From: a virus
Virus record (IMG/VR): IMGVR_UViG_3300008050_000075
Location: 1-48,031 of that record
Reading direction: 5' to 3' (one strand)
DNA: 48,031 nucleotides
Shown: positions 2,340 to 19,340 of the stretch, piece after piece
Position numbering within the stretch: position 1 is the stretch's first letter
Layout: the number at the start of each line of letters is the position of its first letter
The notes under the pieces: generated by a model
What the model saw: the letters and a program-made list of their open reading frames with translations, nothing else
Told to the model about the DNA's origin: nothing
The model's database searches: none
Program-made: the position numbers and the translations under genes

Positions 2340-3343
2340 TGCCGCAGGTTTTATCCAAAGTGCATACAACCGAGGAAATGGTTGAGGTTTGGAATAGGGA
2401 TAATCCCCATGATGTTTTTTTAAGGGATAGTGCATTGGGTGGTAAAATGCCCGAATGGTATGATTTAGATAAGTGGTTATTAAGAGTGGATGATAATAAT
2501 AAAATTATTGCTCGCATAGGGTGGGGTGATAGAGGTTCTCATTATGTTTTAGGGGGGCTTTATGCAATAAAAAACTACCCTAATGGTGAAGGGGAAGTGC
2601 CCAAAAATAACTCAAGAGAATTAATTGAGGCGAGGGAGAGTTTGATTGTAGGGAAACCTAAGATTGCTTCTTTTATGGCTAAGAGAGGTAATAATGCTTC
2701 ATGGAAAGAACACAATAAGAAGAAAAAATTCCCTAAAGGGGGGTGGGTGTTTAACCCTATTGAAGTAGAGGGTATTCCTAAAGATGTTTTAGAAACTTGG
2801 GCTGAAAGATATGACGATGCGTGGGCAGTACGGAAGGAAATGGATTGGGAAGATTTTGCTAAGGCTATATTTGATGATGATGAAAATAGATGGTTTAATG
2901 TTTTGAAGAAGGATAATACTGTTCGTAAGTGGTTTCCCGATTCGTCATGGAGTGAAATAAAAATTAAGGATAGTGAGAAGGGAGTCGGGTATGCGAATGT
3001 AGGGTTTCAAGCCTTAATTAGACCCCACTACATTAACAGAGGTAAAGAGAGGAATCTTCCCTATCGCACAGACCAAATTTCAACATGGGCAGAATTAATT
3101 TTAGAAAAAAATTTACCTGTAAAAATGGCGTATTGGGCTTACACTTCCCCATTAAGAGAGAGAGTGTTTTTCTTTAGTATTATGGATGCCTCCGAGCCAA
3201 TTTATGGAACACAATATAATGTGGATTTTGATAACATAACTATGTTTAATAGCATTGATACTAAAACACCAGCCGATGCAAGAAGGAAACACTCAGAACA
3301 ATTCGTAGATATATGGGGTAATGGAATAGAGAGGCAAGGGTAG
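2339..3343 (+). CDS. Unknown protein with a possible N-terminal GNAT-like domain
   Basis: A 334-residue protein. Residues 40-120 alternate strand and helix patterns (WLLRVDDNNKIIARIGWGDR, then GGLYAI, then a helix with SRELIEARE) in a way that loosely recalls a GNAT acetyltransferase fold. No acetyl-CoA loop is clear, so this is a weak guess. Around residues 168-173 it carries MDWEDF, which resembles the short W-E-D peptide found at the ends of other proteins here; in this gene it is internal. The start shares its A with the previous stop. The 3' end is followed directly by the RNA-repair pair. Confidence 0.75.
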   Translation: MPQVLSKVHTTEEMVEVWNRDNPHDVFLRDSALGGKMPEWYDLDKWLLRVDDNNKIIARIGWGDRGSHYVLGGLYAIKNYPNGEGEVPKNNSRELIEARESLIVGKPKIASFMAKRGNNASWKEHNKKKKFPKGGWVFNPIEVEGIPKDVLETWAERYDDAWAVRKEMDWEDFAKAIFDDDENRWFNVLKKDNTVRKWFPDSSWSEIKIKDSEKGVGYANVGFQALIRPHYINRGKERNLPYRTDQISTWAELILEKNLPVKMAYWAYTSPLRERVFFFSIMDASEPIYGTQYNVDFDNITMFNSIDTKTPADARRKHSEQFVDIWGNGIERQG

Positions 3344-3351
3344 GCAATATT

Positions 3352-3738
3352 ATGTGGTGGAATATTCTAAAGAGTATTAGTTATTCGGCGGTGGTGTTGG
3401 ATGAAAAGTCTAAAAATACTTTACTTGAGTTAGATATTCCCGAAGGTTGGAAACCTATTGCACATCATATGACTATTACTCTTGGGCCATTAAAAGAAGA
3501 TTCAAAGTATAAGGTGGGCGAAGAAATTAATATGCCCATAATCGCTATTGGTAAAGATGATAGGGCGATGGCGGTTAAGGTGGAAGCCAAAGGTGCAAAT
3601 GTTAAATCTTTTCCTCATGTTACTGTTGCAATTAACCCTAATGGTGGTAAACCATTTCATTCTAATAAAATCCCAAGAGAAAACTTTACTGAGTTTAGTG
3701 GGGTATTAAGTGGTATTGTTATGGAGATTTCTAATTAG
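3352..3738 (+). CDS. 2H phosphoesterase-like protein (LigT/CPDase fold)
   Basis: A 128-residue protein with two H-x-T motifs, H39-M-T41 and H89-V-T91, the paired catalytic signature of the 2H phosphoesterase superfamily. Family members hydrolyse 2',3'-cyclic phosphates or 2'-5' linkages at RNA ends. The second motif, in PHVTVAIN followed by GGKPFHSNK, recalls the cyclic phosphodiesterase domain of fungal tRNA ligase. The H-x-T motifs are seen directly; the substrate is inference. The first 9 residues (MWWNILKSI) precede the fold and closely match the leader of the next gene. Followed 8 nt later by a CCA-adding-type enzyme, it may help repair tRNA ends cut by host nucleases. Confidence 0.72.
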   Translation: MWWNILKSISYSAVVLDEKSKNTLLELDIPEGWKPIAHHMTITLGPLKEDSKYKVGEEINMPIIAIGKDDRAMAVKVEAKGANVKSFPHVTVAINPNGGKPFHSNKIPRENFTEFSGVLSGIVMEISN

Positions 3739-3746
3739 GTGATACT

Positions 3747-4991
3747 ATGTGGTTTAATATATTAAAAATATCTGTTGATATTATGCCCCAAGAATTGAGA
3801 AACCATATTAAGAAAGAGGGTGGTAAGGTGTATCAAATCGGTGGGGCAGTTAGAGATGAGTTTTTAGGTAAAGTATCTAAAGACTTAGATTTAATTATTA
3901 CAGGAATAGATATTGATGATTTACAAGTAATTTTAGGGGAATATGGTTCTGTTAATCTTGTTGGGAGGAATTATGGGGTATTGAAGTTTAGACCAACGGG
4001 CCTAACCGGAGAGCCAATAGATATTTCAGTTCCAAGAATAGAGGTTAGCACAGGAGAAGGGCATAAAGATTTTGAAGTTAGGTTGGGTAGAGGTATTACT
4101 TTAGAACAGGAACAATTGCGTAGGGATTTTTGGATGAATGCAATTGCGAAAGATATAGATACAGGGGAGTTAATTGATATTGAGGGTAAGGGGCAATTGG
4201 ATATAAAAAATAAATTAATTTCAGTAATTAACCCTAAAGCGTTTGATGACGACCCACTTAGAATGTTAAGGGCAATACAGTTTGCGGCAAGGTTTGACTT
4301 TGAAATAGAACCTAAAACTATGCAAGAAATAAAAAAGAATGCTAAAAAAATTACTACTGTTTCCCCCACTAGATTTCAAGAAGAATTTAGAAAGATGTTT
4401 GAAAAGGCAAATAAACCAACAGTCGGTGTAGATTTATTAATTGAAACGGGAATTATGCCTTTAATTTTAAGTAAGGGGAAAAGTAACCCATTGATGGATA
4501 AATTAGATAAAAAGGCATTCCCTACATTTTTAGCCCTATTAGCAGAAGATTATGGTGAAGCGGCAGGAGAAACAATACAAACTTTAATGAAAGTATCAAA
4601 GGTAGATACTAAGGCAATTCAAGCAGTAGTAGATTTTCAAAAGATACCCTTTACAAACATTTCAATTATTCAATTCTTAAAAGATAGGGCTAATTTAGAT
4701 TATGTTATTCAACATATTGATGCGTTATTAAAGGCGCAAGGTAAAGGGGCATTAAGTGATAAATTAAAGGATATGAAGGGGGGCGGGATGCCTACAAAAA
4801 GAAATGAGTTAGCAGTTAGTGGGCGGGATTTATTAGATGTGGGGTTAAAGGGTAGACAAATTGGTGAAGCCATAGAATATTTAATGGGGGTTGCCGTTAA
4901 TTCTAAGAATGAAAAGGAACATTTAATTAACGAAGCGAAAAGAGAGTTTGGTATATCTAAAATGTCATGGGAGGATTTACTATGGAGATAA
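3747..4991 (+). CDS. Class II CCA-adding enzyme / poly(A) polymerase-like nucleotidyltransferase
   Basis: A 414-residue protein. The nucleotidyltransferase head is clear: IGGAVRD at 31-37, the metal-binding DxD at 46-48 (KDLDL), RRDFWMNAIA at 125-134, then DDDPLRMLRAIQFAARF from about 167 in the neck. This is the arrangement of bacterial-type class II enzymes; archaeal cellular CCA enzymes belong to class I. It probably adds or repairs the CCA end of tRNA, although poly(A) addition cannot be excluded. It starts with the leader MWFNILKIS and ends with KMSWEDLLWR, so it carries a proposed targeting peptide at both termini. The ribosome binding site is TAGGTGAT, 3 nt before the ATG. Its 3' end overlaps the terminase start. 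Confidence 0.88.
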   Translation: MWFNILKISVDIMPQELRNHIKKEGGKVYQIGGAVRDEFLGKVSKDLDLIITGIDIDDLQVILGEYGSVNLVGRNYGVLKFRPTGLTGEPIDISVPRIEVSTGEGHKDFEVRLGRGITLEQEQLRRDFWMNAIAKDIDTGELIDIEGKGQLDIKNKLISVINPKAFDDDPLRMLRAIQFAARFDFEIEPKTMQEIKKNAKKITTVSPTRFQEEFRKMFEKANKPTVGVDLLIETGIMPLILSKGKSNPLMDKLDKKAFPTFLALLAEDYGEAAGETIQTLMKVSKVDTKAIQAVVDFQKIPFTNISIIQFLKDRANLDYVIQHIDALLKAQGKGALSDKLKDMKGGGMPTKRNELAVSGRDLLDVGLKGRQIGEAIEYLMGVAVNSKNEKEHLINEAKREFGISKMSWEDLLWR

Positions 4992-6424
4992 AACAAATGG
5001 ATTTTGTACATGACATGGATATGGAATTGTCAAAAAATTCTTTCCCTTATTTTTTCAAAGAAGTGTTGGGTTATGATTTAGCCGACTTTCACCAAGAATG
5101 GTTGGAGTTGATTAATACTACTGATAGGACAGTAATTATTTGTAGCCGTGACCACGGTAAATCGGTTTTTATGCACAGTTGGGTTGTATGGAATCTATGT
5201 TTTCAACCACCCCCCTATCAATTCTTATACATATCTTCTAACCATAAACAGACTATGGTTCATATGAGAGAAATAGATAGATTATTTGAAGCCCCTGCCC
5301 TACATCAATTCAAACCTTCAAGAGGATGGGCAATAGGAAACATAACTTTAACTAATGGTAATTCAGTTATGGAAAGGTCAATTGGTTCACAGATTCGGGG
5401 GCTTCACCCTCAAGAAATTATTATTGACGACCCGTTGAAGGAGTTTAGTTTATCCGCTATCCGTAAAGTAACAGATTGGTTTTTTGGGGATATGATACCA
5501 ACCCTCCATCATACTGCTAAGTTGAGAATGATAGGAACGCCCTTTACCTATACTGATATATTTACTGAGTTAGAAGATAATGCCGCCTATACGGTTAGGA
5601 AATACCCATGTTTGAATCAATTGGGTGAAGCATTGTGGGCGGATAGATGGGATTATGATTCACTAATGAGAAGGAAAGAAGAAGTAGGGTCAATGAAGTT
5701 TACAAGGGAATACTTATGTATCCCTATTTCAACCGGCACTTCACTATTTAACCATGAGCATTTAGATGCTTGTAAGGATTTAGGTAAAAAGGATATTGTT
5801 AGAATGCGTGGTAGGCATAAAGAGGGGTATAGTTATTATGTCGGGGTAGACCCTGCAATTTCAACAGATGGTGATTACAATGTTATCCTTGTATTGGAAG
5901 TAGATGAGGATAGGAATAAGCGCATTGTCTTTATAGATAGGCAGAAGAATGTAGAGTTTAGAGAAAATATAAATAAATTAAAATTGATTGGGCAATTGTT
6001 TTCCCCCGAAGTTATATTTTTAGAAACTAACACCTTTGCTAAATCATTTACCCAAGAATTGAGAAATATTACTGATTTGAATGTTAGGGATTTTACTACC
6101 ACAAGAAAGAGGAAGGAAGAAATAATACTTAATTTGCAGATGAATATAGAGAACCACAAAATAGTATTTCCTATGGGTAATGAAGAAAGCCGTAGAGTTA
6201 GTGGTAATATTGTTGATGAATTGTCTATGTTCTGTATTACAGATAGGGGCAAGTTTGAGGGGGTAGGAGCACATGACGACTTGGTAATGGCTCTTGCTTT
6301 GGCTAATGCGGCTACTCATTCTTTGACCGAAGCCTTTGTATTGTTAGACGACTTGGATATATTCGGCAGTAGTGCTCAAGATGCTCCTATGGGCATTGGC
6401 GGAGTATTAGGTTTGAACATTTAG
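4982..6424 (+). CDS. Terminase large subunit (packaging ATPase-nuclease)
   Basis: A 480-residue TerL that would translocate DNA into the procapsid and cut it. The ATPase has a Walker A-like CSRDHGKS at 54-61 and Walker B EIIIDD at 145-150. The RNase H-like nuclease shows the expected acidic residues: D290 in GVDPAIS, E348 in FLETN, and D432-D433 in AHDDLVMA. The start at 4982 is preferred because GGGAGG at 4969-4974 sits 7 nt upstream; an in-frame ATG at 4967 lies within that region. No small terminase is recognisable next to it. Confidence 0.95.
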   Translation: MEIKQMDFVHDMDMELSKNSFPYFFKEVLGYDLADFHQEWLELINTTDRTVIICSRDHGKSVFMHSWVVWNLCFQPPPYQFLYISSNHKQTMVHMREIDRLFEAPALHQFKPSRGWAIGNITLTNGNSVMERSIGSQIRGLHPQEIIIDDPLKEFSLSAIRKVTDWFFGDMIPTLHHTAKLRMIGTPFTYTDIFTELEDNAAYTVRKYPCLNQLGEALWADRWDYDSLMRRKEEVGSMKFTREYLCIPISTGTSLFNHEHLDACKDLGKKDIVRMRGRHKEGYSYYVGVDPAISTDGDYNVILVLEVDEDRNKRIVFIDRQKNVEFRENINKLKLIGQLFSPEVIFLETNTFAKSFTQELRNITDLNVRDFTTTRKRKEEIILNLQMNIENHKIVFPMGNEESRRVSGNIVDELSMFCITDRGKFEGVGAHDDLVMALALANAATHSLTEAFVLLDDLDIFGSSAQDAPMGIGGVLGLNI

Positions 6425-6435
6425 GGGGAGTAAAA

Positions 6436-7761
6436 ATGGGCGAAAAGGGTGATAAAATTAGGGAATTGGCGGATAACGCTGATGAACAAGAACGCCTTAC
6501 AGAAGAAATGGAGAACCTTAACAAGTGGTTAATATCACAACCCATTATTGATGAACATGAAATCGCTAAGAGAATGTGTTTGAAGTTTCAAATTAATTTA
6601 TCGGAGGCGAAAAAGAACCTTGAGAAATACCCGATGGAATATAAAGTGGAAGATAAATATATTCCCGATATAGTTAAAGATATGCGAAAATATAGGCGGA
6701 AACTAAAGGGCGATAATAGGGATAATATGTCTAAATCTATTGATACTTTGGTGTACGCTTATGGTGATTATTTGGGGAAGTGCGTGGATTCTATTTATTG
6801 GGTTAAAAAATACAAGAGCCCTTTGACTAAAATGAAAGGTGATGAAAAGAACCTAAAAAAGATTTATAGTATTAAAGATGGAGATACCCGACAAAAGGTA
6901 ATAGATTCAGTCTGTAAGTTTTGGGAGGCTGATTTAGATATTAAGGGGGTTCCCTATGGTAAAGAATATGCTTCTTTGAGTAAGAGTAGAACCTCTGCTA
7001 AAAAGGAATTGACAAGTATATTGAAGAACATTACCCACCAATCTATTAGGAAAAACTTTAGTGAAAAGGTTGAGGAGTATGTTATCAAAAAAGTGAGTGA
7101 GAATCAAGGTATATCGGCAAGAGAAATACATGAAACGATGGAGTTGAAAATGTTTAGAAAAACTTCTCCTTTTATAATATCTAAAATGAGTGATAAGATT
7201 AACCTTACTAATATAGATGGTAGATATTATAAATTGGATATGAGCATAAAGAAGGATTTGTATGCTTATACTGCGGCCTTTATTGATTCTGATGGGTATA
7301 TTACTATGGATAAAAAGGGCAACCCAAGAGTCGGGTTGGTTGCTACGGGCGATAGGGGTAAGGCATTTATGGTTGAGATGCACAAGAGTTTGGGGGTAGG
7401 AAAACTGCACCTAGACCAAAAATCCCCCCAAAATACAAGGCCGGTTAATCGGCTTAATTTTTATTCTCAGGATGATGTTAGGGAATTGTTACTTAAATGT
7501 CGGCCCTTTTTTAGAATGAAGGGTGAACAGGCCGATACTTTACTTGAATTAATAAGGATTAAGAAGGAACATAAAAAGCAAGATTGGGCTAAACCAAGAA
7601 TAGAAGAATTATTTAAGTTGATGAAGTGGTATAATCATAAAGACCATGTGGGTTTTGACTTTTCACCGTATGGGATTGATGCGGAAGTTATTTCTAAATT
7701 AGAAGGGAATAATAAAATGGGTATTATGGATGGTATAGAGCAAGCGGGAGTGGTGGCTTAG
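6436..7761 (+). CDS. LAGLIDADG-type endonuclease-like protein with helical N-terminal region
   Basis: A 441-residue protein. YTAAFIDSDGYITM, starting near residue 277, is a single LAGLIDADG-type motif, followed by the usual strand pattern and a C-terminal part with FFRMKGEQADTLLELI. Such enzymes with one motif normally work as homodimers and cut DNA to spread themselves. Residues 205-265 look like a winged helix, and the first 200 residues are helical, charged and unrecognised. The gene is inserted between terminase and portal, a common place for homing genes. Because no small terminase is visible nearby, a domesticated role in DNA recognition for packaging is conceivable, but that is speculation. 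It is preceded by a purine-rich GGGGGAG site. Confidence 0.8.
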   Translation: MGEKGDKIRELADNADEQERLTEEMENLNKWLISQPIIDEHEIAKRMCLKFQINLSEAKKNLEKYPMEYKVEDKYIPDIVKDMRKYRRKLKGDNRDNMSKSIDTLVYAYGDYLGKCVDSIYWVKKYKSPLTKMKGDEKNLKKIYSIKDGDTRQKVIDSVCKFWEADLDIKGVPYGKEYASLSKSRTSAKKELTSILKNITHQSIRKNFSEKVEEYVIKKVSENQGISAREIHETMELKMFRKTSPFIISKMSDKINLTNIDGRYYKLDMSIKKDLYAYTAAFIDSDGYITMDKKGNPRVGLVATGDRGKAFMVEMHKSLGVGKLHLDQKSPQNTRPVNRLNFYSQDDVRELLLKCRPFFRMKGEQADTLLELIRIKKEHKKQDWAKPRIEELFKLMKWYNHKDHVGFDFSPYGIDAEVISKLEGNNKMGIMDGIEQAGVVA

Positions 7762-9405
7762 ATGGCTAAGAAGCGTTTTTCAATTAAGAGTTTTCTAAGA
7801 AAGAGAACCCCTATACCTGCTGATAGAACAGTATTTCAAATGGGTATTCAAGAGAGGGCCGATTCATTAATAATGAGTTCCCCTATTCTTTATGAAGTGG
7901 CGAACAGTTCAGTAATTGTTAGGACATGCACTACACAGTTAAAAAATGAAGTATTTAGGAGAGGGTATGAATGGAGGAAGGCTTTTGTTCTTAAGTGTGA
8001 AGATTGTAAAAAGGAACATGATAATCATGTGGATACCTGTAATCAATGTGATAGTAGTAATCTAAGGAAACCTAGTGCTGAACAATTAGAGTATGTTAAT
8101 GAAATGTTTGGTTCATATATCAATTCCTCCGAACAATTATTTATTGATGTGCTGAGGCAATTGGAAGATGATTTGAATATTATGGATGATGCGTATATTA
8201 TGTTGGTTAAAGAGTATTATGTGGATGGTAATGGTGAAATTAAACTACATAAAATTAAAGAAATATATAGGGGCGACCCCATAACTATGACTATTTATGC
8301 TGATGAAACGGGTTCAAGAGGTACTAAGGGATTTACTGCCCTGCATGATAGGTCTATAATGACGGCTGATGAACATGAGTGTCATCCCGATTCGGGGGAG
8401 ATTTTACATCCCGTTCATTATGTTAATAGAGTGAATGGGGAAGAACAGTATTTTATTAGGGGTGAAGTATTACATTTCAGTAAGTATTCACCGAGTAGGC
8501 TTTATGGGCAATCCCCTGTTGTAACTTTATTTAAGCACATAACTACTTTACTTGCTATGGAAAATTATGTAAATACTTCCTACACTAAAAGTAGAATGCC
8601 GAGAGGTTTATTGGCCGTTCAAACAAGAAATATGGAGAGCATGAGAGGCTTTTGGAGGTCTGTAAAAGAGAAGATGGAGGAAGACCCCCATTTTATACCT
8701 GTTATGGGTATAGAAGCGGATAACGGTAAAGGTTCTGTTGAATGGATTAAGTTTATGGATAGCCTTAAAGAAATGGATTATGTTTCAGTTAAGGAAGATT
8801 TGAGAGATAGGATAGGAGGGTTTTATGGAGTAAGTAAGATATTCATGGCTGATTCTTCAACAAGTGGAGGTTTGAATAATGAAGGTATGCAGATTTTAGT
8901 TACTAATAGGGCCGTTGAAATGGCTCAAAATGTATATAATAAGTATGTGTTTCCGTGGTTATGTAAAGAGTTTGGTATTACTGATTGGAGATTAGTATTA
9001 CCTCCTAGCGAAGAAGAAGATGAAATTGCTGTTTTAAGAAAGAGAGAAATAGAAGTAAATATTGCTAATTCTATTAAAGGCTTGGGCTTTGAAGTAGAAA
9101 TGGGTGATGATGGGGAGTTTATTTTTAAGAAACCTCCACCCGTTCAAGAAAAAGCACCCGTAGGAGAGGGGGAAAAAGGCGGAGGTGGGGGGAATAATCC
9201 CCTTGCTGGTTCTAATTTAGACCAAAGAGATTTAGATGAGCAGATGAGAAACTTAACTCAAGGTGAGGCAAAACCTCAAGAGAACCCCGCAACCACAAGA
9301 AATAAACCCTCTATGAGTGTAGGGCCACCTAACCGCAATAGCGGTCTACCCGAAGAAGCGGCAAATAATAATGTAGATAAAAGGACAGAAAGGAGAGTTG
9401 GATGA
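7762..9405 (+). CDS. Portal protein (HK97/SPP1-like) with zinc-ribbon insertion
   Basis: A 547-residue portal forming the ring at the capsid vertex through which DNA passes. Typical features are the N-terminal basic segment, VIVRTCTTQLKNEVFRRGYE near 51-70, the middle part with YGQSPVVTLFKHI, and SVKEDLRDRIGGFYGV. Its place directly after the terminase region supports the call. Cys79, Cys82, Cys93 and Cys96 form a C-x2-C...C-x2-C zinc ribbon inserted near the N-terminus, unusual for bacterial phage portals. The tail from about residue 455 is low-complexity (Pro, Gly, Gln, Asn). The ATG follows the previous stop without a gap. Confidence 0.9.
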   Translation: MAKKRFSIKSFLRKRTPIPADRTVFQMGIQERADSLIMSSPILYEVANSSVIVRTCTTQLKNEVFRRGYEWRKAFVLKCEDCKKEHDNHVDTCNQCDSSNLRKPSAEQLEYVNEMFGSYINSSEQLFIDVLRQLEDDLNIMDDAYIMLVKEYYVDGNGEIKLHKIKEIYRGDPITMTIYADETGSRGTKGFTALHDRSIMTADEHECHPDSGEILHPVHYVNRVNGEEQYFIRGEVLHFSKYSPSRLYGQSPVVTLFKHITTLLAMENYVNTSYTKSRMPRGLLAVQTRNMESMRGFWRSVKEKMEEDPHFIPVMGIEADNGKGSVEWIKFMDSLKEMDYVSVKEDLRDRIGGFYGVSKIFMADSSTSGGLNNEGMQILVTNRAVEMAQNVYNKYVFPWLCKEFGITDWRLVLPPSEEEDEIAVLRKREIEVNIANSIKGLGFEVEMGDDGEFIFKKPPPVQEKAPVGEGEKGGGGGNNPLAGSNLDQRDLDEQMRNLTQGEAKPQENPATTRNKPSMSVGPPNRNSGLPEEAANNNVDKRTERRVG

Positions 9406-9406
9406 T

Positions 9407-9616
9407 ATGACAACAAGAGATGAATTAGCAAAAATTAGGAGAGAGTTGCAAGCGGCTGAAAAGGCAGTAACTTATAATGAGAGTAAGACTGAAACAAATA
9501 GGGACATGGGCCCAATAACTTTACCGAAGAAAAAATGGTTAAAACCAAAGGCTTCCGAAATACCTAATGTTATTCATATGCCTCCTAAACAAAGAAGAAC
9601 AGAAAATAAGTGGTAA
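9407..9616 (+). CDS. Small basic protein of unknown function
   Basis: A 69-residue protein with an N-terminal coiled-coil-like helix (RDELAKIRRELQAAEKA) and a basic, proline-containing second half. A TTG at 9398 is in frame, but GGAGAG at 9392-9397 is too close to serve it and is well placed for the ATG at 9407, so the ATG is chosen. Its stop is followed one base later by the next ATG. The position right after the portal suggests a head protein; nothing more can be said. Confidence 0.6.
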   Translation: MTTRDELAKIRRELQAAEKAVTYNESKTETNRDMGPITLPKKKWLKPKASEIPNVIHMPPKQRRTENKW

Positions 9617-9617
9617 T

Positions 9618-9890
9618 ATGTGGATGGGTATTCTCAAGGCTTGGAAAGTGGAGAGCACTACGAGATTACAAAATATGATTGATGGAGTGGCTAAAGATAT
9701 GGATGTTTTTTCAGCAAGGGCATTGTTTAGCGTAACTTTTGCTAAAGCACATGAGTTGAGGAGAGAAGGTAAAATGGGTTCATTCGCACACTATGATAAG
9801 AGTGGGTTAATAGCATACCTTAAGCGTAGTGATAATTATATGATTGTAGAACGGGGCGATAATGGTAATACTTGGGGGTGGGTTGCTTGA
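9618..9890 (+). CDS. Small unknown protein with MWxxILK leader
   Basis: A 90-residue protein beginning MWMGILKAWKVE, which shares the M-W-x-x-I-L-K leader with the 2H phosphoesterase and the CCA-adding-type enzyme. The ATG at 9618 lies one base after the previous stop. A longer in-frame start at 9567 would overlap the previous gene by about 50 bases and hide the leader, so it is rejected. The rest (RALFSVTFAKAHELRREGKM and a C-terminal GNTWGWVA) matches nothing I recognise. The stop overlaps the TTG start of the following gene. Confidence 0.7.
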   Translation: MWMGILKAWKVESTTRLQNMIDGVAKDMDVFSARALFSVTFAKAHELRREGKMGSFAHYDKSGLIAYLKRSDNYMIVERGDNGNTWGWVA

Positions 9891-12800
9891 CTTTGCTCAA
9901 AGCGTATTTAATGGGTACAAATAACCCATTTGTGTTAGCCAAAGTATATTATGATGAGGTGTTGCTTAAGAGGGAGATTAACCCAATGTTTAACTTACCT
10001 GAAATTAAACTACACCTAAACCTTATTGCACAACAAGAAAGTATTGTTGAAGAAATTGATTCGGTAGTGGCTGATGTAGAAGATGATTTTAAGTATGTTA
10101 AACAAGTAAGCGAATCATTAGCAAGATTTGAGCGACCATTAAATAATACACCTTTAGAAGTGAAACTATCAAAACCCTATGAAAAAGTGATACAAATATG
10201 GGATTCTAATGCGAAAAAGTTTAGGTATGTTGAAAACCCCAAATATGATAAAAATGTGTCTGCTCCCGCCCCTAAATCTGAGGTAACGACCACGGAAAAG
10301 GATAAGAAGAATAAGGAGAAAGAAGAAAAAGAAAGAAAGGAGAAAGAGAGAAAGGAGAGAGAAAATACAACCACAGAACAGGATTTCATGGGGGGCATAC
10401 CAAGAAGGGTTATCCCCAAGAAGGTATTGTATGAGGATGAAGAAGATGAATCCCTTTTGGTTCATATAGGGACATCGGGAAAGACAGGAAAGAAAACCGT
10501 GGATGAGAATATTTTAGGGGATAAAGAGGGTATTGTGGCGGATATTATTGATTTTGAAGAAGTGCATATTAGTGATATTGAATCTTGGCATAAATTAGTA
10601 GATGAATTAGGAAAATTATTAATAAAGTATGAGGGGCAATTGAAAGAAGAAGAAAACATATTAAAACATATGAGTGAGAAACTTGAAAAAACTCTTAATA
10701 AACTTAAAGAAAAGAAGGGTATAGTTGAGTTAGAAGCATGGAAAAAATGGGCAATTACACAGTTTGAGAAACAGATAGTATCGCTTGAAGAAATTATTAG
10801 TGGTTTAGGTGATTATAGTGAAATGGTTGATATTACTGCTTTACAAGAAAAATATAAGAAAGAGATAGAAGTTGCTACTGACAAGTGGAAGCGAGGTATT
10901 AAGGCACCTTCTGGTAAGAATTGGATACAGGAATTAGGCAAACTCCAAGTAGCCCATAAAAAAGAATTAGCGGAAAAACTTAAGTCGCAGACAGGGACAC
11001 CTCTTAAGGCATATAATTTACAAGAAAAGATAAAGGAGATAAAGGGTGTAATTAAGGAATACAAGGCTAAAAAAATAGATACTGTTTCACTAACGGCTTT
11101 TATTCAAGAACATACTAGACCTTTGACGGCGGAGCAAAAAGAGAAAAGAAAGAAAGAGCGTGAGGCTGAGAATAAAAAGAGAGAGAAGGAGGGTAGACCC
11201 CTTCTACCTAAAATACACGAACACACTTCACCAAATGATGAATCAAGTAGTAGGGATAAGAAAATAAAATTTACAGATTCAAAATATTTAAGCACAATAA
11301 AAAACAAGAAGTTGAAGGAGGATTTGGAGGAATTTTTTAGTAATATAAGTGCAGAAGATAAATTGTTGTTTTCTTCTCCTAATGTTTTAGGTGGGAGGAA
11401 AGCAGATGGTTCGGATGAACCGAAAGTAACAACGGGGCAAAAATTTGCTCTTGACCCAAAGCAAAAACCTACTGCATCTTATTTCCTAAGTCATGGAGGA
11501 AAACCTGCACCCGAAGGTACAGAGGAACAAGAGGAGGCCAACCTTTCAAAATTGAAGGATATTTTTAGTAGATATAAGGGAGATAATGATAGGGAATTGA
11601 TTGAAAGGATTAAGACTTCTATTGAGCGAAGATTGTCTGTTATTCGGAGGAAAGCAGAGGAAGAAGCACAAAGGAAAGGGAAAAGAAAGGGAAGGGAACA
11701 TATTGCCCTTACTACATACACCTCATTGAAAAAAGGGTTGCAGAGTATATTAGATGATGCAAATAGAGTAACAGAATTAATTACTAGGAAAAAAATTGTT
11801 AAATTATTTAAGGGGGGTAAGAGAAAATTCACTATGAAAGATTTGGATTTTTGGGAAATTGATGAAGCGGTGGAAAATCTTAAAAAAGAAAATAAAAAAA
11901 GAGCATCTTCTGTTCTCCTAAATAAAACCATTCAAAAATTAAATGGTATAAAAATTGACTTGGAAGAAATATTGGATAGTAAAGTGAAAGACACTACTTT
12001 AAGGGAAATTGTTCGTAGAGCAATAGGTAGAAATATTGGCGGTAAATCAAAAAATGATGGTTCAAAGAGTGGAGGTTCTAAAATACAATCGCATTTGTTA
12101 AGAGAAAACAGAATAAGGCGTGATGCGGAAGGTAAGTTTATTGAACCTACTGAACCCGATGAACCCGAACCTATTGAGTTTGAAGCACCATTGAGAGAGA
12201 ATTATGGGAGTGATAGAGAATATAAAGACGCTCTCCATAAGATAAAACACGCACATAGGCTAAAACAAGAGAGGATAAAAGTTACCCATAATAAAAAAAT
12301 GAAAAAATATAAAACCCTTAAAGCAAAATATGACGATGCTATGGAAGGAGAGAAAGAATATAATAAATTAAAACAGATGGTCGGTTCTATCAAGGGCAAA
12401 GAAGGAGGGAAGAAGTTTTCCGATGAGTGGCTCAAAATAAACCATGATGTGCTGAAGAAATATGTAGGGGTTATCCCTGCTGATGAGAAGCGTAAGGTTC
12501 TTGAAATTATTAATAAAGGACATAAACTATATGCCAAGATAAATGTTAAGAGTAAAGATAAACTTACGCCCTATAATGAATTAAACCCATTACAACAAAG
12601 AGTAAGGCAATATTTCTTGGCGAAGAAATTAAAGTCGGAGAATGAAACTTCCTCAGAAGATTTGGCCGTATCTATTGAGGCTTTAATTGAAACAAACGCC
12701 GAAGATACTTCGGAGTGGATTAACCCTTTAACTGCCCAAAAAGAGAAAGTTAGTAGTAGAGAAAAGGCTACACTTATTGGGTTTTTAGGAAGTGGTCTTG

Positions 12801-13075
12801 AGTTCAAATCACCAATAGAGAAGAATAGATTGGCTTTTATTGCCGCTTTTGATGATGAAACGGCTTCCGATGTGCACCTTATGAAAGTGTGGAAAAAAAC
12901 TATTAAAAGACCTAAGAAGAAGAAAATTCTACCAATTGCTGGTAAGAGTAATTTGGGTGAAGTGCTTGATTATGAAGGGCGCACACTTGGAGATTCTTTA
13001 GAAGATAAGAAAACTGTTACAGACGAGAAGTATGTTTCGGATGATGAATATGGTGCGAACCCCGATGGGGAATAA
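9887..13075 (+). CDS. Very large charged coiled-coil protein
   Basis: A 1062-residue protein dominated by Lys and Glu, with long stretches of predicted coiled coil and polyampholyte, for example the KEREKERKERE-type segment near residue 150. I see no enzymatic motif or membrane segment. The TTG at 9887 is chosen because it overlaps the preceding TGA as TTGA and follows a GGGGGTGGG run; it gives an N-terminus MTLLKAYLMGTNNPF. Its place between portal and scaffold genes suggests an internal head or core protein, possibly ejected with DNA, but this is inference from position and composition only. Confidence 0.75.
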   Translation: MTLLKAYLMGTNNPFVLAKVYYDEVLLKREINPMFNLPEIKLHLNLIAQQESIVEEIDSVVADVEDDFKYVKQVSESLARFERPLNNTPLEVKLSKPYEKVIQIWDSNAKKFRYVENPKYDKNVSAPAPKSEVTTTEKDKKNKEKEEKERKEKERKERENTTTEQDFMGGIPRRVIPKKVLYEDEEDESLLVHIGTSGKTGKKTVDENILGDKEGIVADIIDFEEVHISDIESWHKLVDELGKLLIKYEGQLKEEENILKHMSEKLEKTLNKLKEKKGIVELEAWKKWAITQFEKQIVSLEEIISGLGDYSEMVDITALQEKYKKEIEVATDKWKRGIKAPSGKNWIQELGKLQVAHKKELAEKLKSQTGTPLKAYNLQEKIKEIKGVIKEYKAKKIDTVSLTAFIQEHTRPLTAEQKEKRKKEREAENKKREKEGRPLLPKIHEHTSPNDESSSRDKKIKFTDSKYLSTIKNKKLKEDLEEFFSNISAEDKLLFSSPNVLGGRKADGSDEPKVTTGQKFALDPKQKPTASYFLSHGGKPAPEGTEEQEEANLSKLKDIFSRYKGDNDRELIERIKTSIERRLSVIRRKAEEEAQRKGKRKGREHIALTTYTSLKKGLQSILDDANRVTELITRKKIVKLFKGGKRKFTMKDLDFWEIDEAVENLKKENKKRASSVLLNKTIQKLNGIKIDLEEILDSKVKDTTLREIVRRAIGRNIGGKSKNDGSKSGGSKIQSHLLRENRIRRDAEGKFIEPTEPDEPEPIEFEAPLRENYGSDREYKDALHKIKHAHRLKQERIKVTHNKKMKKYKTLKAKYDDAMEGEKEYNKLKQMVGSIKGKEGGKKFSDEWLKINHDVLKKYVGVIPADEKRKVLEIINKGHKLYAKINVKSKDKLTPYNELNPLQQRVRQYFLAKKLKSENETSSEDLAVSIEALIETNAEDTSEWINPLTAQKEKVSSREKATLIGFLGSGLEFKSPIEKNRLAFIAAFDDETASDVHLMKVWKKTIKRPKKKKILPIAGKSNLGEVLDYEGRTLGDSLEDKKTVTDEKYVSDDEYGANPDGE

Positions 13076-13096
13076 ATATTGAAGTGGTGAATAATA

Positions 13097-13432
13097 ATGA
13101 CTTGGGAAAATATTTTGAGAAAAGAGAATAGTGCTATTCTTGATACTTTAGATGAAAAACAGAAGAAAAAGTTAAAGAAAACTTTACAGTCGGCTGAACC
13201 AACGGAGTATTTCGGGCAAGACTTTACCAAGTTGGGGGAGTTAGTAGATATGCTTAAAGAGTTAGATTTAATTAAGGCAGATAAAAGATTAACTAAGAAA
13301 GTAAAGACTTTTAGTGAGAAGAATGTTGATGTAATTGCTACTGCGGCTAAATTAAGAAAAACATATGAGGAATTATATAGACAAATTAGACAAATAATAT
13401 ATCCTAAAAACAAGGGGTTGAACAAAGAATGA
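13097..13432 (+). CDS. Small helical protein with MTWENILR leader
   Basis: A 111-residue, Lys-rich, all-helical protein beginning MTWENILRKENSAIL. The leader matches the M-x-W/x-x-N-I-L-K/R start of three other genes and shares the W-E-N/D-I/L core with C-terminal tails of other proteins here. The remainder resembles no family I know. The ribosome binding site is GGTGAATAATA. It overlaps the next gene by ATGA. Confidence 0.72.
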   Translation: MTWENILRKENSAILDTLDEKQKKKLKKTLQSAEPTEYFGQDFTKLGELVDMLKELDLIKADKRLTKKVKTFSEKNVDVIATAAKLRKTYEELYRQIRQIIYPKNKGLNKE

Positions 13433-13668
13433 CAGTAAATGAAGAAGTAATAACATTAATTAAAATGTTAATGGAAAAGATTGAAAAATTAGAAAAGAAT
13501 GTGTACGATGGCGACAATATATTAGTTAAGTCGGGGATGGTTAAAGTTAATGGCCCTGTGCCTTCAATAAGCCATACTGCTGACGGTTTGCCTGATTCTA
13601 ATGCGATAGCAAAAATGAGTTGGGAAGATATTAATAACATGGTAGCACAAATGGAGGGGAGAGCATGA
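13429..13668 (+). CDS. Small protein ending in KMSWEDI tail
   Basis: A 79-residue protein. An N-terminal helix (about 1-24) is followed by a short linker and the C-terminal segment KMSWEDINNMVAQMEGRA. That tail matches the end of the CCA-adding-type enzyme (KMSWEDLLWR) and the end of the protease-scaffold (KMDWSDIHSTLDKLTGGI). Serine is coded AGT here and TCA in the CCA-type gene, so the peptide is conserved independently of the DNA. Function unknown; it could be a scaffold accessory or packaged protein. Confidence 0.7.
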   Translation: MTVNEEVITLIKMLMEKIEKLEKNVYDGDNILVKSGMVKVNGPVPSISHTADGLPDSNAIAKMSWEDINNMVAQMEGRA

Positions 13669-13991
13669 ATGTGGAAGAAATTATGAAAAAATTAAAGGAA
13701 ATTAAAGTGGCCGAATATAATAATGTTACTAGTGGTGAAGAAAAAAGCCCTATCCAAGTGGCTGATAAAGATAGATTACCCAATGATGATGATTTAGCAG
13801 GTAAGGAAATAAAACCCGAAAATAAAAAGGGAGAAAAGATAAAGGACAGAGGGTCAATGAGTAGGACAACCCCAATGGATGGAACAAGTGAGTGGAATAA
13901 AGATAAGAAAGATTATCTTTTTGATGCTACGGTAAAACACATCACCATTGAATCATTACAGAATCAATTGGATGATGTATTAAAAGAGTAG
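13665..13991 (+). CDS. Small charged protein of unknown function
   Basis: A 108-residue protein with an N-terminal helix (EEIMKKLKEIKVAEY), a hydrophilic disordered-looking middle and a C-terminal helix (TIESLQNQLDDVLKE). The ATG overlaps the previous stop, with GGGGAGAG upstream. It is the last of three short genes between the coiled-coil protein and the ligase. No function is suggested by the sequence. Confidence 0.65.
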   Translation: MNVEEIMKKLKEIKVAEYNNVTSGEEKSPIQVADKDRLPNDDDLAGKEIKPENKKGEKIKDRGSMSRTTPMDGTSEWNKDKKDYLFDATVKHITIESLQNQLDDVLKE

Positions 13992-14001
13992 GTGGTTTCA
14001 T

Positions 14002-16509
14002 TTGCCCCTTTCTGGTATTTTTGAAAAAGATGTTTCTGTTTTGTCAAGACAGATTGAGCGTCTATTTGAAGGTGTTAGGGTTGATTATCTTTCAGCAAGA
14101 GAAAACCCTACATCTTATAGTAAAGATTGGGGTAAAAGGGTAGAGAAAGTTAGAGAAGCCTATAATGATATAGATGATTTGGCTAGAGTATTACAAGACA
14201 CTATTACTGAAAAGGATTTAGAGTCGGATGATGTTAAAAACCCCGAATCTAATTCTGCGAGGAATGTTTATGGTGCAATAAAAACATTAAGGTTTGACAG
14301 TAAGTATATCAAAGACCCCTTTAGAAAAAAGTTTAAGGAAGAAACATTTGAGAAACTGATGGCGGATAAAAACCTATTGGCTACCTTTATACATTGGGCT
14401 ACAAGAACGGATGAACGGGCTCTACCCAATGAGTCTTGGGAAAACTTATTGCCTAAAGGTGATGTTATTACGGATGGATATAGGGGTTTAGACCTACATT
14501 TAGATGATATTGGGTCATATTTCATTGAACATTATGGGGAAGGTAAGGACACTAAGATGGTTAAACCTAAAATAAAGGGGGCTATATCCCTCTTGAAAGA
14601 AACCTTTACTGCTTCACATGGGGAAGATGGGTGGAGAAAATTAGCGGATATTTCTAAGGCTGAAAAAAAAGCAAGCATGGATTTTATAGTGCCTAATAAA
14701 CCAATGTATCGTATTTTCAACATTGATGACATTAAAGAATTAAAGGGGTTTACGGGTGAATGGGTAGTGCAGGAGAAATACGATGGTATGCGTGTTCAAT
14801 TACATAAAATAGGTGATACTGTTACTGTTTTCTCATATAATAATAAAGATATTACCGATAAATGTGAAGAAGCAGTTAAAATACTAAAGGATAAGAAGTT
14901 TGGTGAATGTATTTTAGATGGTGAATTAATGTTGTTTGATGGTGAAAAGCCTCTATCAAGGGCTAAAGCAATAGCAAGGGTGTTCAAGGATGCGAATAAA
15001 GATATGACTATTAAGATACATGTGTTTGATATAATGAGGCACAATGATAGAGAATTGATGGAGGTTGATTTGGAAGAAAGATTACAAATACTTATGCAAA
15101 ACTACACTCCACATTCACATGATTTTTTGGCTTTCCCGTCTAAACAAGATACAAGGATTGCTCATTCATTGGAAGAAATAGAGGGTTATGCTAAGGAAAT
15201 TATGGAAATACCTACTTCGGAGGGGGTAGTAATAAAGGATTTAACTTCTACTTATTTTGTTGGTACTAAGAAAAACCCAAAGTGGATTAAGTGGAAGAAG
15301 TTTGTTGATTTAGATTTAATGGTTATAGATAAAAAAGAAACTGCTTCTAACTTGAAGTCTTATACTTTAGGTGCAGGGCCATTAAGTATTGAAGAATCAC
15401 GAAAATTAGAACATAAAAAGGTTAATGACCGTTATTATCTAAATGTAGGTAAGGCACTTAATACTAAGGTGGATGTAGAAATAGGTTCAATAGTAAGGGT
15501 AAAGGTGGATGAAGTTAAAAAGAATAAGAAGGGGCAAATTAGGGTATTTTCGGCTAAGGTGATTGAGATTCCCGAAGTGGAAAGCCCCGATAAAATAATA
15601 ACTTTAGAATTATTAGCGGGTGAAAAAGAAGCCATACAATATAAGGTGAAGGCGTTAGAAAAAGGTTATACTGTTAGTGATGATTCTCATGGTGAAGTGG
15701 GGGTTATATTAAAGTCGGAGTATAAGGGATTTACAATATATGGTTTTGAAGAAGATAATTTAATGGCTAAGAATGCTTTATTAGATATTGATATTTGGAA
15801 GGAACAGATAGATAGTATAATGAAAGAAAAGAAAGGCTACCTAAGAGTTTTTATTAAAAACATTATACAACAGGAGAGTAATAATAAATTACCTTTGGCT
15901 AAAATACTTGATAGTATAGAGAGAAATGACAAGGCTAATGCTATTTATCAAGAAGTATTTGATGGTAGTAGTAAAAAATTATCACAGTATTTAACTAACC
16001 AAGCAGAAGAAATATCATTTGAGGGACAACACACTTATTCGGCTAATGAAGAAATAATTGAGAAAGGAGAATATAAAACCCCCGATGAATATAGAGATGG
16101 TAAGTTCAAACTATACAAAAGAGAAGATGAGAACCTTTCTTTGACTTTTCTTCTTAATAATGAGAAATTAGGTTGGGAAATTAAAATAGAAGAAGATGAT
16201 AATATTTTTGATTTGTTTGGTAAGGCGGGTAGATACCCTGCTAAGGTACAATCTACTGTATCAAAAGAAAAGTTGGTAGATGAGGGCGACATTACTTTAG
16301 GTGTACAAAGAGAGGGGTATCATGAATATTTTTTGAAAGGGGAGAAATTTGAAACTAAACTCCATTTGAGGGTAGTGCCCATAGGAGGAGAAGATAAATG
16401 GTTAGCCTTTACTTCTTTTGTTAATGAGCCTGTTAATCCTAAAAGTGATGAAGGAAAATGGGATTTTAGAAAAGGTAAATACGCTCAATTATCCTTTGAA
16501 AACCTATAA
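14002..16509 (+). CDS. ATP-dependent DNA ligase with extra C-terminal domain
   Basis: An 835-residue ligase that seals nicks in DNA. Motif I is EKYDGMR with adenylated Lys259, followed by ILDGELMLFD (motif III), SEGVVIKD (motif IV) and WIKWKK (motif V), then an OB-fold with GSIVRVKVDEV. After the OB-fold come about 280 further residues. Their end (YFLKGEKFETKLHLRVVP, then WLAF) resembles the closing strands of the LigD 3'-phosphoesterase domain, but the usual catalytic His pattern is not evident. Residues 144-150 contain ESWENLL, akin to the proposed targeting peptide. The start is TTG at 14002 after GGTGGT, with no better ATG upstream. It lies in the morphogenesis block, away from the replication genes. 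Confidence 0.92.
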   Translation: MPLSGIFEKDVSVLSRQIERLFEGVRVDYLSARENPTSYSKDWGKRVEKVREAYNDIDDLARVLQDTITEKDLESDDVKNPESNSARNVYGAIKTLRFDSKYIKDPFRKKFKEETFEKLMADKNLLATFIHWATRTDERALPNESWENLLPKGDVITDGYRGLDLHLDDIGSYFIEHYGEGKDTKMVKPKIKGAISLLKETFTASHGEDGWRKLADISKAEKKASMDFIVPNKPMYRIFNIDDIKELKGFTGEWVVQEKYDGMRVQLHKIGDTVTVFSYNNKDITDKCEEAVKILKDKKFGECILDGELMLFDGEKPLSRAKAIARVFKDANKDMTIKIHVFDIMRHNDRELMEVDLEERLQILMQNYTPHSHDFLAFPSKQDTRIAHSLEEIEGYAKEIMEIPTSEGVVIKDLTSTYFVGTKKNPKWIKWKKFVDLDLMVIDKKETASNLKSYTLGAGPLSIEESRKLEHKKVNDRYYLNVGKALNTKVDVEIGSIVRVKVDEVKKNKKGQIRVFSAKVIEIPEVESPDKIITLELLAGEKEAIQYKVKALEKGYTVSDDSHGEVGVILKSEYKGFTIYGFEEDNLMAKNALLDIDIWKEQIDSIMKEKKGYLRVFIKNIIQQESNNKLPLAKILDSIERNDKANAIYQEVFDGSSKKLSQYLTNQAEEISFEGQHTYSANEEIIEKGEYKTPDEYRDGKFKLYKREDENLSLTFLLNNEKLGWEIKIEEDDNIFDLFGKAGRYPAKVQSTVSKEKLVDEGDITLGVQREGYHEYFLKGEKFETKLHLRVVPIGGEDKWLAFTSFVNEPVNPKSDEGKWDFRKGKYAQLSFENL

Positions 16510-16520
16510 ATCATGATTTC

Positions 16521-16530
16521 TTTTATATAG
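16521..16530 (+). promoter_or_regulatory. Candidate archaeal TATA box before the protease-capsid genes
   Basis: TTTTATATAG lies in one of the few gaps of the + strand block, about 25-30 nt before the protease-scaffold ATG. At the usual archaeal spacing transcription would begin almost at the start codon, yet an AGAGG site also precedes the ATG, so either a near-leaderless transcript or readthrough from upstream may be used. Confidence 0.45.
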
Positions 16531-16553
16531 TCATCGTGGTTTAAGAGGTTTTA

Positions 16554-17960
16554 ATGGCGATAGGAGCAACCTTGATTCGGCCCTTTACAGGCACTAATCA
16601 TTTTGCAGACTTTACTATCCTTAAATCGGATAATTTACATATTGCTGGTTATGCCTCTATTGAAATGGTAGATAAACAAAACGATTTAATTACTCTTAAT
16701 GCTCTTGGGGATGCAGTAAAGAAGTTTATGAATGTCCCTCGGTATAGAAATGTTATGTCTAACCATTCTAATGTTCAAGTTGGAGAAGTGGTTAAAGAAC
16801 ATAGGGATTCATCGGGTAAGATATGGAAAACCGAAGTAGATGATGTAGGTTTCTTTGTGGTTATTAAACTGCGAGATGATATAGAAAAGGCTAAAGAGGT
16901 TTCAAGGAGTATTAGAAATGGAGGGTTGCGTTCTTTTAGTATTGGAGGACAAGCAATTCATAAGAAGAAAAAAACCCATGAAGATTTGGGTGATTATAAT
17001 GAAATTAGTAAATTAGAATTACATGAAGTTACCATTTGCGAAAAGGGTATTAACGCTGAGGCAAAATTTGATATTCTCAAACAAGAGAAAGGTGAAACTA
17101 TGAATATAGACAACGCATTACAAGAGATTAATACATTAATTAAACAAATAGAAAACGACAGAGTAGAGAAAACGGCCCTTCCTAATAACTTGGAAGATAT
17201 GTTAGGAGGTAAAACACCAACGGTAGATTCAATTAATGCTGAATTGGCCTCAGTAATGGGGGGCGAAATAGCATGGGGTGAAGCCCAAAGGGTGGTTGAG
17301 AGAGCAGGTATTTCTCAAGAAGATTTCAAACAAATGGCCGCAGAGCACGATTTAGTAGTAAAAAATGAAGGTGAAAATATGACAGAAGAATTGTTAGACA
17401 CAGAAGGCGAAGGCGAGGACATGGAATATATGTCTGCTGGTGAAGGAACGAATGAAGAAGAAGTTGGAAAGACAGATTTAGCCTATGGTGCGGAAAATCC
17501 TGATGAAACGGGTGAAGTAATTCACGATGGTACGCCAAGAAGTAAGCATCCGCAAATTAATGTGAGTGAAAATACAGTAACCGTAAAGGCATACGATGGT
17601 GATACTCCGTCTTTGAATCTAAGCGAAGAAAATTTAGAAAAGGCTTATTCTCAATTTAAGGCTGAACAGATGGAAAAAATGGCTTATCAAGACATTAAAT
17701 CTACCTTTGAAACTCGCCTTGAAAAAGAATTGAGTGTTAAGAAGGCTCGCCAATCTAAAGAGTCTTATGATGCTCAGTTGGAAGTTAACGAATTGAAGAA
17801 ACAATTTAGCGAATTACTTTCCGCAATTAAAGACGACAAAGAAACAGTAATTATGAAGCAACAACAAGTGGCTTCCCAATTACCTACTTTTGATGATATT
17901 TCTAAAATGGATTGGAGCGACATTCATTCCACTTTGGATAAATTAACGGGAGGCATTTAA
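16554..17960 (+). CDS. Prohead serine protease fused to scaffold
   Basis: A 468-residue protein. The first 180 residues match the S78-type prohead protease pattern: GYASIEMVDKQNDLI, His71 in SNHSNVQVGEV, Ser129 in LRSFSIGG, and LELHEVTICEKGINAEA. It would cleave scaffold and capsid N-termini after procapsid assembly. From about residue 185 the protein is acidic and helical, as in scaffolds, with a coiled coil near 360-440. It ends KMDWSDIHSTLDKLTGGI, matching tails on two other proteins here. Scaffold C-termini often bind the capsid protein, which makes this shared ending informative. The major capsid gene follows. Confidence 0.9.
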   Translation: MAIGATLIRPFTGTNHFADFTILKSDNLHIAGYASIEMVDKQNDLITLNALGDAVKKFMNVPRYRNVMSNHSNVQVGEVVKEHRDSSGKIWKTEVDDVGFFVVIKLRDDIEKAKEVSRSIRNGGLRSFSIGGQAIHKKKKTHEDLGDYNEISKLELHEVTICEKGINAEAKFDILKQEKGETMNIDNALQEINTLIKQIENDRVEKTALPNNLEDMLGGKTPTVDSINAELASVMGGEIAWGEAQRVVERAGISQEDFKQMAAEHDLVVKNEGENMTEELLDTEGEGEDMEYMSAGEGTNEEEVGKTDLAYGAENPDETGEVIHDGTPRSKHPQINVSENTVTVKAYDGDTPSLNLSEENLEKAYSQFKAEQMEKMAYQDIKSTFETRLEKELSVKKARQSKESYDAQLEVNELKKQFSELLSAIKDDKETVIMKQQQVASQLPTFDDISKMDWSDIHSTLDKLTGGI

Positions 17961-17993
17961 GTTTCCTTTGGGAATTAAATAGAGGTGAAAATT

Positions 17994-19340
17994 ATGGTAA
18001 AATATATTAATACATTGAAAGACTTAGAAAACGCAACCTATGGAGTTGCAGGGAATAACCTATTAAAAGCAGGTGGCCTTGTTGCTGGTGTTCACACCGG
18101 CCATGATAGTGCTACTGCTCTTAACGGAACGGCTTGGAGTTCAACCCCCAACCTATACAATGTTCTATACGGCCAAAAAGTATGGTCTATGCTAAATCAA
18201 GAAGTAAACCCTTTGAGTATTCTTCCTAAGAAACCCTACACAAGTAGCGGGTGGAGAGTTATGACAGGTCGCCCTGCTGGTGGTAGTGGTGCGGCTTTTG
18301 GTTTGGGTTCAACAAGTTATGCGGCTGGTAATGCTATGGCGGCACCAAACGCTGATGAAATTGGTGGAGTGGATGAAAACCACGGTCTTGCTTCGGCTGG
18401 ATTACAACCTTTAGCCCCAACATACGATGTTCTTTATATGAGCCCAAAGACAGTTGCTCATATGTTTGATTATTCGGAATTGGCTGGTGAAATGGCTAAG
18501 ATTGATGATGGTGTAGGAGATTTAAGAGCCCTTATTCGTGAAGATATGGGCAAATTTCACGCTGAAACACAATCAGTTATGCTGGTTATGCCCCTTGAAA
18601 ATTATGACGATACTAATTATGCTGGTATTGAAAGAAATTATACTTCTTTGATGAAGATAATTGCTTCAAGTGCAGAACATGAGGCTATGGTTGATGCTAC
18701 AATTCATGCAAGGTTAACTTCTACTTCTTCAACAGGTGGGTTAACAACCGATTTCTCACAATTGTATGGGAATACTTCTCGCCAATTAGTGGGTAATGCT
18801 TTTAATGCTTCCTTTATGGATTCTCAAGTAGATTATGGTGATTCTTATGCGGCGGCTGATGTTCGCCCATTAACCCTTACTTTATTGAATAACATGATTC
18901 AAAATTTGAGAACCAACGGCGGTACACCAAAATGTATCTTAACAGGATATGATACTATCCAAGCAATTGCAGACCTATTGCAGAGTCAAGAAAGATTCAT
19001 TGACGGAAAAGAAATTATTCCTACACATAATGGTGTTCGTGGAATTAAGGGTCAAGAAGTAGGATTTAGAGTAGCAACATACTACGATATTCCTCTTATT
19101 GCCGCAAAGGATATGCCTTCAAGCGGATTGGCTAGCACACAATTATCGGATATGCTCTTTTTAGATACCGACCATCTATGGCTTTCAGTTATGAAACCTA
19201 CTGAATACTTTGAAAGTGGTATTTCTCATGGCGACCCATTCGGAATTGGTACACTTGGGAATCGTGGAATGTATCGCACAATGGGCGAAACCGGATGTTC
19301 TTTCTTTAAGGGTCAAGGTAAAATTACCAACATTCAATGA
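17994..19340 (+). CDS. Major capsid protein (HK97 fold, inferred)
   Basis: A 448-residue protein directly after the protease-scaffold, the standard place for an HK97-fold capsid protein. Composition fits: Ala/Gly-rich, few Cys, and a C-terminal part with hydrophobic strands (TYYDIPLIAAKDMP, then MLFLDTDHLWLSVMKP). The N-terminal 50-60 residues could be the segment removed by the protease. AGAGGTG at 17981-17987 serves the ATG at 17994; a GTG at 17985 lies inside that site and is not used as the start. Codon use looks less AT-biased than in neighbours, as expected for a highly expressed gene. Confidence 0.88.
   Translation: MVKYINTLKDLENATYGVAGNNLLKAGGLVAGVHTGHDSATALNGTAWSSTPNLYNVLYGQKVWSMLNQEVNPLSILPKKPYTSSGWRVMTGRPAGGSGAAFGLGSTSYAAGNAMAAPNADEIGGVDENHGLASAGLQPLAPTYDVLYMSPKTVAHMFDYSELAGEMAKIDDGVGDLRALIREDMGKFHAETQSVMLVMPLENYDDTNYAGIERNYTSLMKIIASSAEHEAMVDATIHARLTSTSSTGGLTTDFSQLYGNTSRQLVGNAFNASFMDSQVDYGDSYAAADVRPLTLTLLNNMIQNLRTNGGTPKCILTGYDTIQAIADLLQSQERFIDGKEIIPTHNGVRGIKGQEVGFRVATYYDIPLIAAKDMPSSGLASTQLSDMLFLDTDHLWLSVMKPTEYFESGISHGDPFGIGTLGNRGMYRTMGETGCSFFKGQGKITNIQ

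Follow-up and report, generated by a model that had tools for sequence, protein, structure and literature searches.

We studied a 48,031-nucleotide stretch of viral DNA (positions 1 to 48,031 of IMG/VR record IMGVR_UViG_3300008050_000075; hereafter, the window), a 48-kb fragment that includes both the replication and the morphogenesis modules. A first-pass annotation had pointed to three proteins in the window with matching C-terminal tails of the form KM[SD]W[ES]D[IL]. We propose that these tails belong to a short tag, [ST]-W-x-[DN]-[IV]-[LI]-K, which is common to the tail of the scaffold and to cargo proteins and which probably targets them to the head (we put the probability at about 0.75).

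Tag carriers in the window

All three tails lie on the + strand. KMSWEDLLWR (4959-4988) ends a CCA-adding enzyme (identified by Pfam; coding sequence 3747-4991). KMSWEDINNM is near the end of a conserved 79-residue protein (coding sequence 13429-13668; the 13429 protein), with its core, KMSWEDIN, at 13612-13635. KMDWSDIHST is near the end of the protease-scaffold (coding sequence 16554-17960; S78 prohead protease by Pfam), with its core, KMDWSDIH, at 17904-17927. Each of the latter two tails is 18 residues from the end of its protein. As the annotation had stated, the serine is encoded by TCA in one tail and by AGT in another. The major capsid protein (17985-19340, + strand; SU10-type by Pfam) is the putative receptor for the tag.

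The annotation had also noticed the same core in N-terminal leaders, and we found it at the start of four proteins, again on the + strand: a 2H-phosphoesterase-like protein (MWWNILKS, 3352-3375; coding sequence 3352-3738), the CCA-adding enzyme (MWFNILKI, 3747-3770), an open reading frame listed as 9567-9890 (MWMGILKA, 9618-9641; we infer that the methionine at 9618 is the true start), and a conserved 111-residue protein (MTWENILR, 13097-13120; the 13097 protein). The CCA-adding enzyme is tagged at both the N-terminus (MWFNILK) and the C-terminus (KMSWEDLLWR).

The tag across related viruses

We scanned viral contigs with the capsid protein, which gave 52 loci, and with the scaffold-protease, which gave 80 loci (about 130 related loci). 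Complete homologues of the scaffold-protease end in the tag tail, and the W motif is present in about 65 distinct scaffold C-termini listed, such as AKMDWNEIH, AEMSWSDIH, and NMSWNEAH. In an alignment of 39 diverged scaffolds, W454 is invariant, though much of the C-terminal region is variable. The protease-scaffold contains coiled coils, and its conserved C-terminal tail forms a short helix that starts at the key tryptophan in a structural model of the scaffold alone (a model of moderate quality that carries no contact information). The homologues of the 13429 protein are similar in number to the scaffolds, and nearly all of them have a tail of this kind at the end; the exceptions are one clear case (in locus L120, with F for W) and a small number of variants, GDKSWGELH among them. 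In the proteins of the related loci, the pattern M[SD]W.[DE][IL] has 122 matches within the last 35 residues, 53 within the first 15, and a single internal one, versus about one match in all after shuffling (these are counts of unique proteins, many of them homologous to each other). The likeness of the three tails goes far beyond chance, and the placement of the motif across related viral proteomes, which the annotation had expected to be random if its idea were wrong, strongly favors the termini. With a looser pattern, 140 of the 143 C-terminal cases are homologues of the scaffold or of the 13429 protein.

When we scanned all of the proteins of the related loci, the same leader turned up on hundreds of further proteins; each genome has from several to about 30 of them. 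Its consensus is eight residues long (M-S-W-x-D-I-L-K), and the logo, M-[ST]-W-[KEQF]-[DN]-[IV]-[LI]-K, breaks off abruptly after the lysine. Across 14 genomes or large fragments, 921 late-strand genes include 197 with the core W-x-x-[IV]-[LI]-K in their first 15 positions, and none of 760 early-strand (replication) genes has it there. (Open reading frames were called by a simple greedy rule, so these counts are approximate, and the genomes are related and hence not independent.) The looser pattern gives 210 late-strand versus 4 early-strand cases (Fisher p = 6.5e-54). For this core motif, the tighter of the two patterns, the rate per position is 0.0143 in the first 15 positions of late genes and 0.000087 internally, an enrichment of about 160-fold.

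The leader is modular. After the tag was removed, 408 carriers fell into 217 sequence clusters (E = 1e-3), and an alignment of 140 carrier representatives conserves only MxWxxILK. Orphans make up 61% of the carriers versus 23% of other late genes, and the carriers vary between related viruses, as do the carriers of the capsid-targeting sequence (CTS) of phage T4. Most homologues of the 13097 protein have a W..[IV][IL]K leader at the start (mostly M[ST]W..[IV][IL]K), and homologues of the 2H-phosphoesterase within the clade start with MSWKTILKS or MSWKDILKL. Aside from the scaffold, the 13429 protein, and the 13097 protein, the conserved core head and tail genes (among them portal, terminase, tube, and tape-measure) lack the tag, and so does the major capsid protein. 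In a blind scan of viral contigs with a DNA pattern, almost all of the matches listed were from this clade. By eye, a few carriers seemed to have ADP-ribosyltransferase-like motifs, which Pfam did not support. In one relative (G014; loci L188-L190), 31 of 66 genes are N-tagged, with a preference for F or W following the key tryptophan. The scaffold tail of this relative (NMSWNEAH) is divergent too, and it is possible that the tag and its receptor have co-varied there.

The tag is found at either end of proteins. The CCA-adding enzymes of the clade are tagged at both ends: they start with MSWMDILK or [MV]GWMQILK, and their C-terminal ends are LWKSILKKQYNIK or LWKSILRRNTRW, with LWKSILKK or LWKSILRR near the end where the window has KMSWEDLLWR. 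C-terminal copies of the ILK form occur on other proteins as well (KKSWEEILKC, KKSWNEILKVN, LKSWMDILRN, SSWQEILKVVR, and VTWREILKVN). Together, these sequences argue that the C-terminal motif is the same element as the N-terminal leaders.

Homologous enzymes from outside the clade provide natural swaps of the leader. Within the clade, a HAD RNA-repair enzyme begins with MSWMDILKAINKIVIIDFDQTL, in which the tag is a clean extension; the homologues outside the clade lack the tag and either start directly at the domain (MITRILFIDFD or MRKLAFYDFD) or lie within larger proteins. For the CCA-adding enzyme, the 9 distinct sequences from 13 loci outside the clade have no W tag, and all of them have a leader that resembles the T4 CTS at the start or near a plausible start, such as MIKFSSFLTE, MKPFRKFLNE, or MRKFKNYIIE. 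Most of them lie among neighbors that start with MKSFKQYITEA or MKTFTQFLEEA; for comparison, the T4 internal proteins IPII and IPIII start with MKTYQEFIAEA. Because the same enzyme has a T4-type head-targeting leader elsewhere and the W tag here, the W tag of this lineage likely does the same job. This comparison of leaders is the strongest indirect evidence for such a role. On other marine virus contigs (L330, positions 910-5783, and also L323-L334), rows of adjacent genes start with T4-type leaders (MKSFKQYITEA and others) and make up a large set of internal proteins that is these viruses' own.

The nearest named capsid proteins are from the Druskaviridae, at 22-23% identity, but unlike in our lineage, the head-region proteins that we checked from HVTV-1 (and also from vir519) have no tag. 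As published, the Magrovirales, which are viruses of marine Poseidoniales archaea, have genomes of about 90-110 kb in which the modules are opposed and which encode PolB, a ligase, and a chaperonin. Similarly, the replication and morphogenesis modules are opposed in relatives of 86-95 kb, the window encodes PolB and an ATP-dependent ligase, and a GroEL-like chaperonin is present in 4 of the 7 relative records that we scanned (although not in the window fragment). From this genome layout and gene content, we infer that the lineage belongs to the Magrovirales, and this marine lineage probably infects archaea. Four contigs of this virus group (L314-L317) were binned in draft genomes that are labelled as Maricaulis or Altibacter, which is probably due to mis-binning.

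Three other genes of the window deserve mention. The ATP-dependent DNA ligase (14002-16509) is on the late strand rather than the replication strand, and it always adjoins the protease-scaffold (it has homologues in 123 loci). An Arf/Ras-like small GTPase (21071-21742; weak Pfam matches, the best at 3e-5) is encoded in the cluster of head and tail genes, and 90 of the related loci contain a homologue; this is an unexpected gene for the structural module of a tailed virus. A homing-endonuclease-like gene (6436-7761; PHROG HNH endonuclease, 1.6e-8) lies between the terminase and the portal and is at the same place in related genomes.

Proposed role and alternative explanations

We favor a role in head packaging because the tag is modular, terminal, present at either end, confined to the late strand, and swapped for a T4-type CTS elsewhere. 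Also, most of the carriers are orphans, as expected for cargo that takes part in an arms race (compare PMC3012670). The tag near the C-terminus of the scaffold-protease would probably dock against the inside of the shell as it assembles, and the small 13429 protein and the 13097 protein carry the same tag. Many unrelated accessory proteins, RNA-repair enzymes among them, would have acquired this tag in the lineage, at the N-terminus or, less often, at the very C-terminal end. The tagged carriers would enter the procapsid together with the scaffold, stay with the DNA inside the virion, be delivered at the next infection, and act early in the new host. A tagged CCA-adding enzyme, 2H-phosphoesterase, and HAD repair protein would fit with the delivery of tRNA repair.

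Several observations weigh against this proposal. The T4 CTS is removed, but there is no conserved cleavage site after the tag. The T4 CTS targets the scaffold core rather than the shell, while here the scaffold itself bears the tag, which makes the capsid protein a candidate receptor rather than a certain one. In a predicted structure with the scaffold tail fused to the capsid protein, the mean pLDDT (predicted local distance difference test) is 45, too low for the model to speak for or against this receptor. (For this model, the two genes, which are in the same frame, were joined by translating both stop codons between them as serine; this is a computational device, and we do not claim read-through.) Most carriers have no known function, and the viruses that we used for comparison were recognized as T4-like by their leaders, not by marker genes. 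The annotation had suggested that the tails might recruit cargo by mimicking the scaffold through contact with the capsid protein. Recruitment through a tag shared with the scaffold tail is the best-supported explanation, and contact with the capsid protein is putative.

The annotation's other suggestion was that the tails mark a site for the protease. If the motif served chiefly to be recognized or cut by the prohead protease, so that its bearers were trimmed as the head matures instead of being recruited, then it would make sense that the protease itself bears the motif and is in the same gene cluster, and in T4 the CTS does overlap its cleavage site. However, there is no conservation beyond the lysine of the tag, some copies form the last residues of their proteins, and a cut there would be of little use, and the capsid protein, which is usually the main substrate, lacks the motif. 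We consider it unlikely that this is the main role, but it is compatible with packaging. Alternatively, the tag might direct late proteins to some destination other than the head, such as the portal, the tail, the membrane, or the site of virus assembly. All of the carriers are on the late strand, which includes the tail genes, but the three conserved carriers are within the head gene cluster, and one of them is the protease-scaffold; furthermore, the portal, terminase, tube, and tape-measure proteins are untagged, and the CCA homologues elsewhere have a head-targeting type of leader. Another destination seems improbable.

The N-terminal leader could also reflect translation initiation or another nucleotide-level feature, or it could be a cassette of 5' DNA spread through recombination, with no function in the protein. 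The codons of the tag are indeed biased: its serine is AGT in 92% of cases versus 27% across late genes (and 53% for serine at codon 2 of untagged late genes), and the isoleucine at the third position after the tryptophan is ATA in 67% versus 32%. This bias exceeds that of gene starts in general and hints that the tags spread partly by DNA recombination, so a DNA cassette may be how they originated. Despite this bias, the leucine codons vary freely, early genes lack the motif, and the C-terminal copies, including those on an enzyme that is tagged at both ends, rule out a purely nucleotide-level or translation-start explanation; we view an element without protein function as very improbable. 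Finally, short peptides can be alike by chance, and isolated internal matches do occur. The annotation had listed ESWENLL in the ligase as another instance, but it is not conserved in homologues of the ligase, so we rejected it as a true tag and view it as a coincidence; MDWEDF in the 2339 protein is present but is internal, we found no homologue, and it is probably a coincidence as well. For the terminal copies, chance is refuted by the N-terminal enrichment, the restriction to one strand, and the conservation in diverged homologues, and we give it almost no weight.

A broader version of the packaging proposal is that this lineage, abundant in the sea, has its own code for loading the head: an eight-residue mimic of the scaffold tail, able to work at either end of a protein and placed on several to about 30 proteins per virus, including a tRNA-repair kit, so that each head would deliver a fast-changing set of counter-defense proteins. 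We give this broader claim roughly even odds. If it is true, then a single sequence rule tells where (in the virus head) and when (on entry) hundreds of orphan proteins of an uncultured group of marine viruses act, and T4-like phages and this lineage each evolved head-targeting tags on their own. It would also suggest that tRNA-repair enzymes travel with the DNA of marine viruses, presumably to counter defenses that cut tRNA, and it would offer a peptide ready for use wherever proteins are to be loaded into a viral shell.

Comparison with known systems

In a search of the open-access literature (most subscription journals are outside of it), we found no report of capsid-targeting sequences in archaeal viruses. 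In T4, ten N-terminal residues of IPIII are sufficient to bring proteins to the head, with residues 4 and 7 being the most important (PMC9026906); the internal proteins of T-even phages are diverse defense proteins that have only the CTS in common (PMC3012670). Like the CTS, the tag is a short terminal peptide that is common to otherwise unrelated and fast-changing late proteins, and the same type of enzyme (CCA-adding) has a CTS-like leader in other marine viruses. However, the sequences are unrelated (K-x-[YF]-x-x-F-x-x-E, as in MK[TS][YF]xxFxxE, versus W-x-x-I-L-K), and unlike the CTS, the tag occurs at either end of proteins, is shared with the scaffold's own tail, and is on several to about 30 proteins per genome. 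Our best reading, by analogy, is that the W tag works like the T4 CTS but does not belong to that sequence family.

The C-terminal tails of scaffolding proteins, including the protease-scaffold fusions of herpesviruses, bind the capsid. The protein in our lineage likewise fuses a protease to a scaffold, and it has the coiled coils and the conserved short helix at the C-terminus, but here the tail motif is also on cargo proteins, and its binding to the capsid is putative. In encapsulins, a short terminal peptide loads cargo into a shell with the HK97 fold. The tag that we describe is similarly short and terminal and is proposed to load proteins into an HK97-fold shell, but it belongs to a virus with a scaffold and a protease, and the likeness to encapsulins is one of general description rather than of sequences or of a binding pocket.

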